A stretch of DNA of 54,849 bases from Xanthomonas axonopodis (GTDB taxonomy: Bacteria; Pseudomonadota; Gammaproteobacteria; Xanthomonadales; Xanthomonadaceae), in the NCBI RefSeq assembly GCF_001304695.1, contig NZ_JFAQ01000068.1:1-54849 (forward strand), in the 5' to 3' direction. Below are positions 46,736-52,260 of the stretch, piece after piece (positions within the stretch are counted from its first letter, which is position 1; each line of letters starts with the position of its first letter). A program made the position numbers and the translations under genes. Below the pieces are notes generated by a model. The model was not told the origin of the DNA and did no database searches. It worked only from the letters and a program-made list of their open reading frames with translations.

Positions 46736-47164
46736 TCAGTGGTTGACGATCTCGCCGTGCATGGCCGCCAGGCGCGCCAGCAGGCGATTTTGCGTGCGAC
46801 GCGGAATCTTGCGCTGATCCATGGCCCAGTTCAGATCTTCGACCAAGGCATTGAAGTCGCCTTCGCGGATGGCCAGGTGCGCATGTGCCTGCTGCATCGA
46901 CTTGGTGGTGTCCGGGCATGGGCCGTCGGCGACATGACAGAACTTCTGCACCAGCCGATCGTTGAGCATGACGATATTGACGCGTGCGAATTTGTCGACG
47001 ATGCGTGGGTCGTCGGCGATGCGCGAGAGCATGGTTTCCACCAGCGCTTCGATGCCGGCCTGGCCGTCGAGCTCGTCGTACAGCGTCTGCCGCGGTTGCG
47101 TGCTGGCGCAGGCACTCGTCAAGCCCAGCATGCATAGCAACAACCAGCGCAACCATCGGTTCAT
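46736..47164 (-). CDS. Exported group 1 truncated haemoglobin
   Basis: The product (142 aa) has an N-terminal hydrophobic segment (residues 5-18) ending LTSACAS, resembling a lipoprotein signal with Cys19, though the -3 residue is Thr, not Leu. The rest matches group 1 truncated globins: TLYDELDGQAGIEALVETML, FARVN, FCHVADGPC, and SMQQAHAHLAI, in which His94 aligns with the proximal haem ligand. Truncated globins bind O2 or NO. An export signal is unusual in this family. Its ATG shares one base with the DUF3034 stop (TGATG). It is the last gene of the four-gene operon. A weak 7-bp hairpin overlaps its stop. Confidence 0.82.
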   Translation of the reverse strand: MNRWLRWLLLCMLGLTSACASTQPRQTLYDELDGQAGIEALVETMLSRIADDPRIVDKFARVNIVMLNDRLVQKFCHVADGPCPDTTKSMQQAHAHLAIREGDFNALVEDLNWAMDQRKIPRRTQNRLLARLAAMHGEIVNH

Positions 47165-48036
47165 CAAAACGCCACCTGCAAAGAGAGATAAGGACCGCGC
47201 TGATCGGCAAGCGTGGCGATATCGCCAAGATCGGCCCAGGCGGCGGTCAACGACACATGCTTGCTGGGGAACCAGGCGACGAACGCATCTGCCCACGCTT
47301 GCTCGCGCGCGAAGCCGAGGTTATTGGGTTTGTCGCGATATTCCGCGCCCACAGCCCAAGACGGCGAAAACACCACCGCAGCACTGACCTCGGGCACCAA
47401 ACGATAGCTATTGCGGCGATCGCCGCCGAAGCCGAGCAAGCCAGTCTGGTTGGCGCGGGTAGCGCGCAAGGTGCCGTTGAGCAGCAGCTGATATCCGCCG
47501 GCGCCCTGCAGCAACAGGCGGCTCGCGCTGACGTAGATATCGGTGCCGTGATCGTCGCGCGCACCGATCGCCAACGGCAAGGTGCCGTTGCGCAAGCGCT
47601 TGTATTGCACGCCCAGGCTGACTTGCGGCGCATGTCCGTACACAAGATCGCCGGCCAAGCGCCACTTGGCACCGAACACGTCCTGGCCAAGCGCATTCCA
47701 TGGCAAGCCGAGCCGGTCCTGCAAGGTGCCCAGATCCAGACGCTGGCGGGCAAGCGACAGCTCCAGCCGATTGCCGACCGTGAGCGCGGCGCCCTGCACG
47801 TCGAGACGGTAATCGCCGCTATCCACGTGCGTTGCGAATACGACGGTACCGAGTTCGTCGCGCGTCCCGTAACCCGACAATGTGGCCCACGGCACGATGC
47901 CGCCGCCGCTACTGCCTTCGATCATCGATACGACGCCGGTGGCGAGCAGGCGCCCGTCGCCGGCCAGGGCATGCAGCGGCGCGAACACGCCGGTCACCGC
48001 AGCAGCAAGGAACGCAACACGCAGATGCACGCTCAT
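47164..48036 (-). CDS. DUF3034-family outer-membrane protein
   Basis: The product (290 aa) has a signal peptide (MSVHLRVAFLAAAVTG to ALAG), then a repeating beta-strand pattern of alternating polar/apolar residues ending in a terminal aromatic (LSLQVAF), typical of outer-membrane beta-barrels. GGGIVPWATLSGYGT and QDVFGAKWRL are family blocks of DUF3034, of unknown function. The start ATG 48036 overlaps the GGDEF/EAL stop as ATGA; its stop shares a base with the haemoglobin start. It is likely an outer-membrane output or transport component of this operon. Confidence 0.82.
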   Translation of the reverse strand: MSVHLRVAFLAAAVTGVFAPLHALAGDGRLLATGVVSMIEGSSGGGIVPWATLSGYGTRDELGTVVFATHVDSGDYRLDVQGAALTVGNRLELSLARQRLDLGTLQDRLGLPWNALGQDVFGAKWRLAGDLVYGHAPQVSLGVQYKRLRNGTLPLAIGARDDHGTDIYVSASRLLLQGAGGYQLLLNGTLRATRANQTGLLGFGGDRRNSYRLVPEVSAAVVFSPSWAVGAEYRDKPNNLGFAREQAWADAFVAWFPSKHVSLTAAWADLGDIATLADQRGPYLSLQVAF

Positions 48037-50399
48037 CGCCGCACACCTGCATGCGCTGGCGCGGTCATGCCGAGTTGGCGCATGCACCAGGCCACCAGCG
48101 GCGCTTCTTCCAGCGGTGGCGAATACAGATAGCCCTGCACCATGTCGCAGCCGTAGCCGCGCAGCAGGGCGAGGGCCGCGGTGTTTTCGACGCCTTCGGC
48201 GATGACGCTCAGCCCCAGGTTATGCCCCAGATCGATCGTGCTGCGGACGATGAAGGCATCGTCGGTGCCTTCGGCCAACTGCATGACGAAACTCTTGTCG
48301 ATCTTCAATTCGTTCACCGGCATGCGCTTGAGTTGGGCCAACGAGGAATAGCCGGTGCCGAAGTCGTCGATGGACAGGCGCACACCCACACCGCGCAACT
48401 GATGCAGCATGTGCAGCGCGAATTCGACATCACGCATCAGGGCGCTTTCGGTCAATTCCAGCGTGACCGACTGCGCGGGCACGGCGTGATGCTCCAAACG
48501 GCTGCGCACGAAGTCGGGCAAGCCGGGGTCGGACAGATCCAGTGCGGACAGGTTGATCGCCATGCCCAGTACCAGCCCGTGCTCGCGCCATTGCGCCTGG
48601 CAGCGCAGCGCTTCGTCCAGCACGAAGCGGGTGAGCGGATGGATCACGCCGGAGTGTTCGGCGAGCGGAATGAATTCGTCCGGGCCGATCGGCCCGAGCA
48701 CCGGATGATGCCAGCGCACCAGCACTTCGACCTGTTCGACATGATCGGTGCGCAGACAAATCTTGGGCTGGAAGCGCAAGGTGAGTTCGTTGGCGCCGAT
48801 GGCCTGACGCAAGTCGCCAGTGAGGCGCAGACGCCGCAGATGCTGTTCGTCCTGGCCCATGCGGTAGACACTGGCGCCGAAGGTGGATGTCGTGCCGACT
48901 TGCCGCCGTGCGATGTCGGCCCGGCGCAACAAGGTGTCCGGGTCGGCACCGTGCTCGGGAATCAAGGCGATGCCGATGCTGGCTTCGAGCTGGATGCGCG
49001 CCTGCGGCAACACCAGCGGGCGGCGCAATTGCAACAGCAGATGCTGCGCATCCTGCTGCACGCTGGCCGCATCCGCTTGCGCCACCACCACCATGAATTC
49101 ATCGCTCCCCAGCCGGCCCACCAGATTGGGCGCTTGCACCACATCGACGAGCCGGCGCCCGGCTTCGACCAACACCTGGTCTGCGAAGTCGTGGCCCAGG
49201 CTGTCGTTGAGTTCCTTGAAGCGCTCCAGATCCAGGATCAGCACCGCGGCGGTGCCGCCGGATGCCACGGTCTGATCCACCACGTCCTTCAAGCGCTCCA
49301 GCAACCAAATCCGGTTTGGCAACCCGGTCAAGGCGTCATGGCGGGCCTGATGCAGGATGTGCTGTTCGCGGCTGGCGATCTGGTGTTGCATGCGCCCGAA
49401 ACTGTCGGCCAATTCGGCGAGTTCGCGGCCCGGCGGCACCTGCACGGCGGTGCGGTAATCGCCGCGCTGAATGCGCCGTGCGGCCTGCACCAATTGCGCA
49501 ACCGGTTTGCTCACGCTGCGCGCAAGAAAAATCGCCACGCCCAATGCAGCGACCGTGGCCAAGCCTGCCAGCAGCAGAATACGCAGCTTGAGGATGCGGT
49601 ACGGCGCCACGGCGCGATCCAGCGATGCCTGCAACGCCACCCGCACCTGGCTGTCGCCCTGGATCGATTGCAGTCTGACCAGATAACGCGCCTGGTCCAG
49701 CGTCAGCGGGATCGATGCAGCCTGCTCCTTTTCGGCCAGGGGCAGTTGCTGCGCAAATTGGGCGCGCGCCGAGGGCTCCAGGGTGGAGGCCAGCACGCGC
49801 ACCGGCGGACCATCGGTGAAGAAGGTCGCATCCAGCCCGGTAGTGGTGCGGAAATCCTGCGCCAGGCCATCGCCGGATTCGTTGCCGATCCCGATCCAGC
49901 CGACGCGGTTCGGCGCCAGCACCTGCACCACTGCCAACCGCACGATGTGTTGATTCAGCGCCACCACGCCGACCGCGCGTCCATCGCGCTGTGCCTGTTC
50001 CAGCAATGCCTGCACCGCACGCAGCTGTTCGGCCTGCGGGACCTCGGCCAGGCCGGTCAAGAATTGCCCATCGGGCGACAGCAACAGCGCGGTTTGCGCG
50101 GACATGCGCGCGGCGTGGTTGCGCAGGGCCGATTGCATGGTCGGCACATCGCCGCTGGCGACGGCCGCACGAAACCCGAAGTCGTCGGCCAGCACCGACG
50201 CCGACTGCAGCAACTGTTCGTCGCGGCGCATATTGATGCGTTGCCAGACCCGCTGCCCGATCTCCAGCTCTTCGCCAAGCTGCGCCTTGACGCTGCGCTC
50301 GGTGGCCACCTGCACGGCAAGGAATGTCAGCGCCTGCGTGGCAAGCACGACCAGCACCAGCACGGCCGCGATGCGGGTATGCAGGCGCATCGACCTCAT
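48033..50399 (-). CDS. Membrane GGDEF/EAL c-di-GMP protein with periplasmic sensor
   Basis: The product (788 aa) has two membrane helices (about 8-30 and 272-292) that bracket a periplasmic sensor region, then HAMP (about 293-345), GGDEF (about 355-515) and EAL (about 530-775). The cyclase motif reads GSDEF (residues 431-435), and the EAL motif reads EVL (558-560). In the EAL domain the metal and catalytic residues are kept: N616, E648, D678-D679 (DDFGTG), K699, E735. A phosphodiesterase role is more likely than cyclase, but either is unproven. It is co-translated (ATGA) after the cupredoxin-like gene and before DUF3034. Confidence 0.9.
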   Translation of the reverse strand: MRSMRLHTRIAAVLVLVVLATQALTFLAVQVATERSVKAQLGEELEIGQRVWQRINMRRDEQLLQSASVLADDFGFRAAVASGDVPTMQSALRNHAARMSAQTALLLSPDGQFLTGLAEVPQAEQLRAVQALLEQAQRDGRAVGVVALNQHIVRLAVVQVLAPNRVGWIGIGNESGDGLAQDFRTTTGLDATFFTDGPPVRVLASTLEPSARAQFAQQLPLAEKEQAASIPLTLDQARYLVRLQSIQGDSQVRVALQASLDRAVAPYRILKLRILLLAGLATVAALGVAIFLARSVSKPVAQLVQAARRIQRGDYRTAVQVPPGRELAELADSFGRMQHQIASREQHILHQARHDALTGLPNRIWLLERLKDVVDQTVASGGTAAVLILDLERFKELNDSLGHDFADQVLVEAGRRLVDVVQAPNLVGRLGSDEFMVVVAQADAASVQQDAQHLLLQLRRPLVLPQARIQLEASIGIALIPEHGADPDTLLRRADIARRQVGTTSTFGASVYRMGQDEQHLRRLRLTGDLRQAIGANELTLRFQPKICLRTDHVEQVEVLVRWHHPVLGPIGPDEFIPLAEHSGVIHPLTRFVLDEALRCQAQWREHGLVLGMAINLSALDLSDPGLPDFVRSRLEHHAVPAQSVTLELTESALMRDVEFALHMLHQLRGVGVRLSIDDFGTGYSSLAQLKRMPVNELKIDKSFVMQLAEGTDDAFIVRSTIDLGHNLGLSVIAEGVENTAALALLRGYGCDMVQGYLYSPPLEEAPLVAWCMRQLGMTAPAHAGVRR

Positions 50400-51079
50400 G
50401 GGCGTGGCTTCTTCGGGTCGGCGTTACGGAACTTGTCCTGCAGCGCGCGCGCGCGCGCATCCGGTGGCGCCACGGCCGGCGCGGTGCCGGTGGTCTGCAG
50501 GGTCACGCGGCGCTGCACTGGCTCGCGCGTGATCACCAACGGCTCGCTGCTGGCAGCGCCCTTGATGCGCGGGTGCCAGACGCGCAGCGTGTAATTGCCC
50601 GCAGGCGCGTCAAGCTGGACGTGGCCATCGCTGCCGGTCTTGCCGAAGTACGGCGTCTCCAGCACCACGATGTACCCCAGCATCCAATCGTGGATATTGC
50701 AGCCAATGGTGACCAGGCCAGCCTGATCGAAACGCACCGGCGTAGCCGTAGTGCCCTGGAACAATGGCAGTTCGAAGCGCTTGGCCGGCGAGAACGAATA
50801 GACCTGATGGCGAATCTGGTCTTTGTTCGGAAAGCGCACCAGGGTCCCGGTGCGCACTGCCAGCACGGCAGGCACGAACTGCGAGTTGATCTGGTCCATT
50901 TCCACGGTCTTGACCGCGCCAGGCGCAACCGGCCGCGCAGGCTCCAGACTCACGACCGCATCGACCAACACGCCATTGGCGTCGGCCACGGTCACGACAA
51001 CCGACGTGGCCGCTACCGCCCCTGAGGCGACATACGCCGCCAGCACACACATCGCACCCACCCGTTTGAACCATCGCAT
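50396..51079 (-). CDS. Periplasmic cupredoxin-like (methylamine-utilisation-type) protein
   Basis: The product (227 aa) has a Sec signal peptide cut after about residue 23 (SGAVAA). Mature residues resemble the cupredoxin-like proteins annotated as methylamine utilisation proteins: RHQVYSFSPAKRFELPLF and VTIGCNIHDWMLGYIVVL. A His91, Cys127, His130, Met133 set could form a type 1 copper site, although Cys-x2-His-x2-Met spacing is tighter than plastocyanin. C-terminal tail is Pro/Arg-rich. ATG 51079 is the first good start; TTG two codons earlier is in frame. It opens the four-gene operon. Confidence 0.82.
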   Translation of the reverse strand: MRWFKRVGAMCVLAAYVASGAVAATSVVVTVADANGVLVDAVVSLEPARPVAPGAVKTVEMDQINSQFVPAVLAVRTGTLVRFPNKDQIRHQVYSFSPAKRFELPLFQGTTATPVRFDQAGLVTIGCNIHDWMLGYIVVLETPYFGKTGSDGHVQLDAPAGNYTLRVWHPRIKGAASSEPLVITREPVQRRVTLQTTGTAPAVAPPDARARALQDKFRNADPKKPRP

Positions 51080-51289: not shown

Positions 51290-52228
51290 TTACTTCAGCT
51301 TGATCTCGCGCAGACGCTCTTCCAGGAAACCATGCGCCGTGATCGCCTCCGGATACGGGCTGGGATTATCGGCACTGATGCACGAGGGCAGCACGTCGAT
51401 GAGGAAATCCGGATTGGGGTGCAGGAAGAACGGCACCGAATAGCGCGGCTGGCGCGCCTGCTCTCCAGGCGGATTGACCACGCGGTGGATGGTGGACGGA
51501 TATACATGGTTGGTCAGGCGCTGCAGCATGTCGCCGATGTTGACCACGATGGTGTCGGCGTCGGCAGTGAACGGCACCCATTCGCCATCGTGGGAACGCA
51601 CTTCCAGGCCGGCGGCACTGGCACCCACCAGCAAGGTGATGAAATTGATGTCGCCATGCGCACCGGCACGCACGTTAGAGATGTCGTCGCTGGTGATCGG
51701 CGGGTAATGGATCGGCCGCAGGATCGAATTGCCGTTGTTGGTCTTGTCGACGAAATAGTCCTGCGGCAGGCCGATATGCAGCGCCAGCGCGGACAGCACG
51801 CGCGAACCCAGTTGATCCAGTTGCTGGTACAGCTGGTAGCCGCGCTCGCGGAAACCACGCACTTCGCTGGGCCACAGATTCGGCGGCATCACTGCACGGT
51901 ACGGCGAATCGTCCGGAATCTCGCGACCGATGTGCCAGAACTCCTTGAGGTCGAAGTGCTTGGAATCCTTGGCGGTTTCCACACCGAACGCGGTGTAGCC
52001 ACGCGCGCCGCCGCTGCCTTCCATGTGATAACGGCGCTTGGTCGCTTCCGGCAACGCGAAGAACGCCTTGAACACCTCGTAGGCGGCGTCGATGTCGGCC
52101 TGGGCGATGCCGTGATTGCGGATGCCGGCAAAGCCCCACTGCCGATAAGCCGCTCCGAGCTCGGCCACGAAGGCATCGCGGTCGGTATCGAAACGGGTGA
52201 TATCCAGCGTGGGGATGCGCGCGCTCAT
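51290..52228 (-). CDS. 2-oxoglutarate/Fe(II)-dependent oxygenase (isopenicillin N synthase-like)
   Basis: The product (312 aa) has the double-stranded beta-helix fold of the isopenicillin N synthase family. The metal triad is His191-x-Asp193 (HGDINF) and His248 (STIHRV), and the R-x-S co-substrate motif is RYS (262-264). The N-terminal DIOX_N region (YRQWGFAGIRNHGI) is present. Substrate unknown; many Xanthomonas genomes carry such oxygenases near the 2OG-Fe family. ATG 52228 has family-like start; ATG 52246 is in frame. It lies after the glmM terminator, so is transcribed separately. Confidence 0.88.
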   Translation of the reverse strand: MSARIPTLDITRFDTDRDAFVAELGAAYRQWGFAGIRNHGIAQADIDAAYEVFKAFFALPEATKRRYHMEGSGGARGYTAFGVETAKDSKHFDLKEFWHIGREIPDDSPYRAVMPPNLWPSEVRGFRERGYQLYQQLDQLGSRVLSALALHIGLPQDYFVDKTNNGNSILRPIHYPPITSDDISNVRAGAHGDINFITLLVGASAAGLEVRSHDGEWVPFTADADTIVVNIGDMLQRLTNHVYPSTIHRVVNPPGEQARQPRYSVPFFLHPNPDFLIDVLPSCISADNPSPYPEAITAHGFLEERLREIKLK

Positions 52229-52260
52229 ACGGATGTCTGCAGTCAAGGTCGAAAAGGTCG

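Follow-up and report, generated by a model that had tools for sequence, protein, structure and literature searches.

A cluster of four overlapping genes in Xanthomonas axonopodis

The window analyzed here is a 54,849-nucleotide (nt) stretch of Xanthomonas axonopodis DNA (contig NZ_JFAQ01000068.1). It carries four overlapping genes, all on the minus strand, that encode, in this order, an exported cupredoxin (cup), a membrane-bound sensor with GGDEF and EAL domains of the kind that act on cyclic diguanylate (c-di-GMP) (gg), a protein of the DUF3034 family and an exported truncated globin (glb) (Table 1). The set is real and conserved. Because the four genes recur together in many bacteria in shuffled orders, they very probably form one sensing system, which is undescribed as far as the literature was searched.

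The gene calls and overlaps given in a preliminary description of the locus, made from the sequence alone, were exact on re-check: 4 nt are shared by cup and gg, 4 nt by gg and DUF3034, and 1 nt by DUF3034 and glb. Overlaps of this kind suggest a single transcript and translational coupling. A scan for promoters and terminators gave nothing above chance. Pfam searches with the window proteins matched glb to Bac_globin (PF01152) above the cut-off (E 1.5e-10), the third protein to DUF3034 (E 1e-111) and gg to dCache_3, HAMP, GGDEF and EAL; the cupredoxin match was weak and below the Pfam cut-off (E 0.038). The signal peptides of cup and DUF3034, as well as the Cys following the globin signal, were read from the sequence by eye.

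Table 1. Features of the four-gene set in the window (aa, amino acids).
Feature	Position	Strand	Basis or remark
cup, exported cupredoxin, 227 aa	50396-51079	minus	type-1 copper ligands H91, C127, H130, M133
gg, transmembrane segment, dCache_3-like periplasmic domain, transmembrane segment, HAMP, GGDEF (GSDEF), EAL (EVL), 788 aa	48033-50399	minus	Pfam; transmembrane segments read from sequence
N-terminal 290 aa of gg (input half), used to build the sensor-domain profile	49530-50399	minus	
DUF3034, exported predicted 12-strand outer-membrane beta-barrel, 290 aa; N-terminal segment of lower confidence (possible plug)	47164-48036	minus	Pfam, structure model
glb, group I-like truncated globin of 142 aa, exported and possibly a lipoprotein, with F8 His94, Cys76/Cys83 and an apolar distal pocket	46736-47164	minus	

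Conservation and co-occurrence of the four families

Conservation was assessed in 398 genomes, the window's own among them, sampled evenly across the phylum Pseudomonadota. Few candidates were scored per genome in the searches for cup, globin and sensor, so that these tallies are lower bounds. DUF3034 was found in 39 of the 398 genomes, cup (E 1e-10 or better) in at least 60, the sensor input domain in at least 51 and the globin family (139 bits or more) in at least 41, other truncated globins scoring from 97 bits down, a gap that partly reflects a profile built from such loci. Every one of the 39 DUF3034 genomes has the globin (Fisher p 4.6e-52), 38 have cup (Fisher 2.7e-36; the exception is G138) and 37 have the sensor input domain (exceptions G079 and G138). 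Among the 51 sensor-domain genomes, cup is present in 49 (Fisher 2.2e-49).

The same association is seen locally. The globin adjoins DUF3034 within about 8 kb in 38/38 fetched sample loci (L087-L124) and in the window; all four genes lie together in 29 of these 38 and in the window, that is, in 30/39, L093 being left out since its EAL match is not of this sensor type. The neighbourhood search proposed in the preliminary description therefore finds the set conserved among DUF3034 genomes and not confined to this one. In a wider collection of 92 DUF3034 loci the globin stands beside DUF3034 in all 92 (in L086 it is cut by a contig end, in L125 both genes are broken), and all four families lie within the fetched stretch in 67. 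Rates were taken from the 398-genome sample and not from these 92 loci because the latter partly overlap, some assemblies having been reached via two routes, and because 35 of the 55 collinear loci are Xanthomonas. Gene starts in relatives were guessed. Within the family of the window's genome, DUF3034 is present in 34/34 same-genus relatives, in 0/2 other genera and in 0/6 further family members in the sample; its relatives at 85-96% identity are all named Xanthomonas.

The arrangement of the genes varies. The window's order, cup, gg, DUF3034, globin, is found in 55/92 loci. In six loci and one Novosphingobium plasmid, gg and cup are divergent from DUF3034 and globin; L099 and two Caballeronia plasmids have the order DUF3034, globin, cup, gg; in L080 (Methylophilus) cup, gg and globin are together with DUF3034 divergent from them. 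The pair DUF3034, globin has cup and no sensor in 3/92 loci and stands alone in 13/92, and in 3/92 (L081-L083) the globin is divergent from DUF3034 with nothing else of the set. The remaining loci are duplicates or cut or broken variants. Two blocks, cup with sensor and DUF3034 with globin, thus recur in collinear, divergent and permuted arrangements; retention of a set while order and orientation vary is what a functional unit typically shows. Complete sets were also found on plasmids of Caballeronia and Novosphingobium (L222, L224, L226), in 3/3 examined of 13 DUF3034-bearing plasmid records. Neighbouring families were grouped by clustering alone, so that copper genes may be among them; within the 60 largest clusters, recurrence in at least four loci outside Xanthomonas was confined to the four families and two unidentified clusters (5 and 4 loci).

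Pairwise distance correlations of the four proteins over 29 loci are all positive (0.41-0.66, Mantel p 0.001), a result that cannot tell co-evolution from shared ancestry.

Several variants of the locus and its surroundings were also seen. Unlike in the window, GGDEF-EAL and DUF3034 share one unbroken reading frame in X. phaseoli CP094243.1 (L050:5628-8873); the GGDEF-EAL gene of Xanthomonas sp. F10 falls into two frames (L076:5282-7935). The sensor-EAL gene is tandemly duplicated in L087 and L088, flanking cup on both sides. L125 (G138:C3) is an additional, broken copy of the DUF3034-globin pair in a genome of 2.3 Mb where cup and sensor were not found, and L126 (G030:C10) is a second DUF3034-globin pair without cup or sensor alongside, in a genome of the window's genus that has the full operon as well (L137). 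A Sinorhizobium plasmid record without annotation carries a copy of cup (L225). In the window, a 2-oxoglutarate-Fe(II) oxygenase gene (51290-52246, minus strand) lies 210 nt upstream of cup, and the end of such a gene is visible by eye in 14/16 aligned upstream regions.

The cupredoxin is paired with membrane sensors

The His-Cys-His-Met type-1 ligands of cup are invariant in 40/40 aligned sequences and present in 73-74 of a wider set of 75, the rest being gaps. By sequence the protein has a complete type-1 copper site, which bears out its earlier assignment as a cupredoxin. The cup profile touches the solved structures 6hbe (E 0.00011) and 9cck (E 0.0019). Eight of 40 relatives touch the amicyanin model, against whose cut-off of 110.2 bits the window protein scores 16.1 bits, and several plasmid relatives are annotated as 'methylamine utilization protein'.

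Cup and sensor form the wider of the two blocks and also occur together away from DUF3034. For 46 of the 58 sensor-domain matches a cup gene lies on the same strand at a distance of up to 400 nt, and the sensor adjoins 46 of the 55 strongest cup matches, an adjacency that partly reflects profiles built from such loci. The 12 sensor matches that do not adjoin cup comprise two tandem sensor duplicates in cup operons (G295, G402), five GGDEF-EAL proteins elsewhere (L227-L230, L108), three GGDEF-only proteins (L231-L233) and two proteins in cup-less genomes (L234, L235). In five genomes (G056, G283, G304, G319, G447) DUF3034 and globin lack a sensor next to them, yet cup with sensor is found elsewhere in the same genome.

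Ten genomes of the window's order, in which DUF3034-globin (L127-L136) has no adjacent sensor, were especially informative. Cup is present elsewhere in all ten; the sensor profile matches in seven, each time adjoining cup, and a membrane protein with dCache and/or HAMP adjoins cup in 10/10. These neighbours are one GGDEF-EAL protein (G040), eight Ser/Thr protein kinases, found via cup and not via the sensor profile, and one protein cut by a contig end (G045). The eight kinases are transmembrane proteins with dCache and/or HAMP (L237-L243 and L245, in G049, G048, G050, G038, G057, G055, G039 and G046), and a further one lies next to cup in L161 (G047), also in a genome of this order. Other outputs carried by the input half beside cup are a class III nucleotide cyclase (L154, L155) and, with weak similarity in both cases, PAS-containing hybrid histidine kinases (L165, L166). 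In L165:224-4829 the cupredoxin adjoins a MauG-type di-haem peroxidase as well as the PAS hybrid histidine kinase with its weakly related input domain.

A constant pair of cup and input half combined with varying outputs implies that the two work together, and since cup adjoins a membrane sensor in all ten order-level relatives, it is probably the periplasmic partner of the sensor. Docking of cup on the sensor is likely, and the ten genomes raised our estimate slightly. No Cys, His or Met occurs at the eight best-conserved positions of the sensor domain, and the profile of this domain matched no solved structure at E up to 0.1.

Predicted outer-membrane proteins and the exported globin

The structure model of DUF3034 (predicted local distance difference test score 88, predicted template modelling score 0.81) has 12 long strands, and nearly all of the best 50 matches listed in a fold search with it are outer-membrane barrels. 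The protein is a predicted outer-membrane beta-barrel, and its modelled 12-strand fold agrees with the outer-membrane placement proposed earlier. The fold resembles FapF, the KdgM/NanC porins, the COG4313 channel and FadL-type channels. By sequence, the DUF3034 profile finds no FapF chain and gives short matches only to Ika8 (E 0.00034) and Ika4 (E 0.037). In the accessible portions of the literature the family is named in a retron paper, which seemingly means DUF3037, and in a listing of an actinobacterial membrane protein.

Where DUF3034 is missing, cup and sensor are often followed by an unnamed family of exported proteins of 400-420 aa; its neighbours are cup and sensor in 8 loci and cup without the sensor in 5 (L142, L148, L149, L151-L153, L157-L160, L162-L164). 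The last residue is aromatic in 10 of these 13 proteins. Three members scanned had no Pfam match, and a profile of the 13 sequences found no solved relative (best E 0.34). This is probably a second outer-membrane family, judged by its sequence traits. A relationship to DUF3034 was considered and rejected, none being detectable (hhalign probability 3). In L150 and in a Comamonas plasmid the neighbour place is held by DUF4394.

The globin profile finds HbN at E 2.5e-25, and the proximal F8 His is present in 91/91 family globins. The window globin is, by family match and proximal His, a group I truncated haemoglobin. In HbN, a hydrogen-bonding pair of B10 Tyr and E11 Gln serves O2 binding and NO dioxygenation. 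This pair is absent here: B10 Tyr and E11 Gln each occur in 0/91 family globins versus 8/19 and 7/19 controls, and both E7 and E11 are Leu, Phe, Val or Ile in 91/91. A Cys pair is found in 89/91 versus 3/19 controls. The 91 sequences include many near-identical Xanthomonas rows, and the 19 controls, from 18 loci, were hand-picked from the listed matches without DUF3034. The apolar pocket speaks against HbN-type gas turnover and leaves room for binding of NO or CO, for an electron-shuttling haem or for a hydrophobic ligand.

In the preliminary description a copper or haem protein did the sensing; here the globin, which stands beside DUF3034 in 92/92 loci, goes with the barrel, and the two likely act together at the outer membrane. 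Two genomes (G386, G047; L202, L203) have a globin of the family without DUF3034, and no barrel family was found in six neighbouring frames scanned at these loci.

The predicted output is c-di-GMP breakdown

The catalytic motifs of the window's EAL domain (EVL, INLSA, ELTES, IDDFGTG, LKIDKS, AEGVEN, VQGYLY) are largely conserved across 74 rows, with E-x-L kept in all 70 rows that have letters there. The GGDEF site reads GSDEF in the window and ranges in relatives from GGDEF to HLIADEF and RITGSEF. Because the EAL motifs are intact and GGDEF is often degenerate, gg is probably a phosphodiesterase; its EAL domain is likely active and the output would be c-di-GMP breakdown. The change in c-di-GMP foreseen in the preliminary description is thereby narrowed to probable breakdown, with other outputs placed on a similar input elsewhere.

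Proposed function and alternatives

Computation gave the linkage of the four genes in two blocks, the barrel prediction for DUF3034, the set of copper ligands, the composition of the haem pocket and the intact EAL motifs; the docking of cup, the direction of the signal and its identity (redox, gas or copper) are inferred. We propose that the set is a trans-envelope signalling system composed of barrel and globin, a copper relay and an inner-membrane sensor with EAL output, a reading to which we assign a probability of about 0.5. DUF3034 would form a small outer-membrane channel, with the exported globin held at its periplasmic side, where the haem in the apolar pocket may meet a small ligand or oxidant. 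Cup would relay the outcome through its own condition (with or without copper, oxidised or reduced, bound or free), docking for this on the dCache domain that the inner-membrane sensor exposes in the periplasm. The HAMP domain of the sensor would hand the signal to EAL and so alter c-di-GMP breakdown. The signal itself may be a gas or a redox cue that haem and copper process, at somewhat less than even odds. Of the model put forward in the preliminary description, the single conserved unit stands, and cup tracks a membrane sensor; the refinement is that the sensor has cup as its constant neighbour, and not the globin.

A broader proposal, held tentatively although the ten genomes strengthened it slightly, is a family of copper-protein-gated receptors. 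In this family the cupredoxin would be a detachable input subunit of dCache-HAMP receptors, the outputs (EAL, class III cyclase, Ser/Thr kinase, hybrid histidine kinase) being swapped, as would be the outer-membrane feeder (DUF3034 with the apolar-pocket globin, or the 410-aa barrel-like family). Systems of the DUF3034 branch would use haem and copper to detect a ligand or a redox state on the outer side of the inner membrane, and would set either c-di-GMP or the phosphorylation of proteins.

Copper itself could be the signal if cup were a periplasmic copper-binding switch that reports metal loading and not electron transfer or a gas, with DUF3034 and the other outer-membrane partners as channels for metal or metal complexes and the globin as an ancillary protein. 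Cup is indeed the constant element whether or not the globin is present, its four ligands are all invariant, and one of 40 relatives weakly touches the CopI copper-resistance model (E 0.0051). An ancillary globin is, however, unlikely because DUF3034 has one alongside in 92/92 loci, and we regard copper sensing as improbable. Import of an organic or haem-like compound by DUF3034 or the alternative barrel, the globin binding the compound or its haem and the set adjusting c-di-GMP in its presence, would suit the channel-like folds listed above and the pairing of cup and sensor with another exported family, unrelated in sequence, that has outer-membrane traits. But a barrel fold says little about cargo, and there is no fixed pathway beside the set, because among the 60 largest neighbour clusters nothing else than the two unidentified ones recurs in four or more loci outside Xanthomonas; this explanation, too, appears unlikely.

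The group I truncated globin fold and a copper site of the electron-transfer type would fit a detoxification operon, in which cup supplies electrons to a globin that acts in the periplasm as an NO dioxygenase or peroxidase, and gg does no more than share their transcript. The pocket residues, which set the family apart from the controls, and the tracking of cup by the gg input half genome-wide, away from the globin too, make this very unlikely. That the genes are plain genomic neighbours without common function could be argued from the 16/92 loci with DUF3034 and globin only (13 collinear, 3 divergent); it is already contradicted by genome-wide co-occurrence and shuffled gene orders and is hardly credible.

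Several observations weigh against the trans-envelope signalling proposed here. Besides these 16 loci, G138 has no cup or sensor match in its genome. Gene linkage gives no direction of signal, and the sensor-domain profile, built almost wholly from cup-adjacent sensors, favours such cases. An apolar B10 also occurs in 7/19 control globins (Leu 5, Ile 1, Val 1), and Xanthomonas globins have Asp at the Tyr of the YxG motif that most relatives keep. In X. oryzae pv. oryzicola, deletions of both HAMP-containing GGDEF-EAL genes, XOC_2120 and XOC_2944, one of which may correspond to gg, are reported to have had no effect on swimming, sliding, extracellular polysaccharide, biofilm or protease, and the single mutants none on virulence, in the accessible part of that report (PMC4823724). 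Regulator sites upstream of cup showed no convincing excess for gas regulators in 74 regions compared with mononucleotide shuffles: FNR-type sites (up to 3 mismatches) numbered 54 versus 34, NnrR-type (up to 2) 59 versus 37, sigma-54-type (up to 2) 22 versus 10.6 and Clp (up to 3) 42 versus 37.6, with no excess for NsrR. The three mild excesses were not used because the matches are loose and about half of the rows are near-identical Xanthomonas. In the window, a 2-oxoglutarate-Fe(II) oxygenase gene (51290-52246, minus strand) lies 210 nt upstream of cup, and the end of such a gene is visible by eye in 14/16 aligned upstream regions.

Comparison with known systems

The preliminary description knew of no described pathway with this set, and our literature search, with subscription journals mostly outside its scope, likewise found no account of it among the papers listed. 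In their accessible parts, two Xanthomonas oryzae papers list HAMP-containing GGDEF-EAL proteins without mention of this gene context (PMC6637768, PMC4823724), and a paper on iron oxidisers mentions truncated globins and not this set (PMC3770913). With this analysis DUF3034 gains a genomic context together with a fold prediction, truncated globins of the exported kind are connected to a signalling output, and the exchangeable subunit of a receptor is proposed to be a redox-metal protein; because DUF3034 is present in 39 of the sampled genomes, one biochemical test would inform many species.

The C-x2-H-x2-M ligand loop of cup is shared with cupredoxins of the amicyanin and pseudoazurin type and with the cupredoxin part of copper nitrite reductase, from which cup differs by an extra C-terminal stretch and its link to membrane sensors. 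DUF3034 is similar in fold to FapF (5o65), KdgM (4pr7) and the COG4313 channel (4rl8) at 9-11% identity, and the match to FapF obtained here is one of fold. The globin shares the fold family, F8 His, CD1 Phe and G-P motif of HbN (1idr/2gl3) but is exported, with apolar B10, E7 and E11 and a Cys pair.

H-NOX, NosP and globin-coupled c-di-GMP enzymes such as DosC and BpeGReg work in the cytosol, and a globin-coupled sensor has its globin fused to the output. The likeness lies in the coupling of a haem protein to a c-di-GMP enzyme; the window globin, in contrast, is exported, encoded by a separate unfused gene and genetically tied to DUF3034. YfiB-YfiR-YfiN consists of an outer-membrane lipoprotein, a periplasmic regulator and an inner-membrane c-di-GMP enzyme. 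No Pfam match to YfiR or OmpA-like YfiB was found at E up to 1 in the four window proteins. The set resembles that system as an envelope-spanning chain ending in a HAMP-coupled c-di-GMP enzyme with periplasmic input, and differs from it by its copper protein, globin and barrel and by EAL rather than GGDEF being the seemingly active output.
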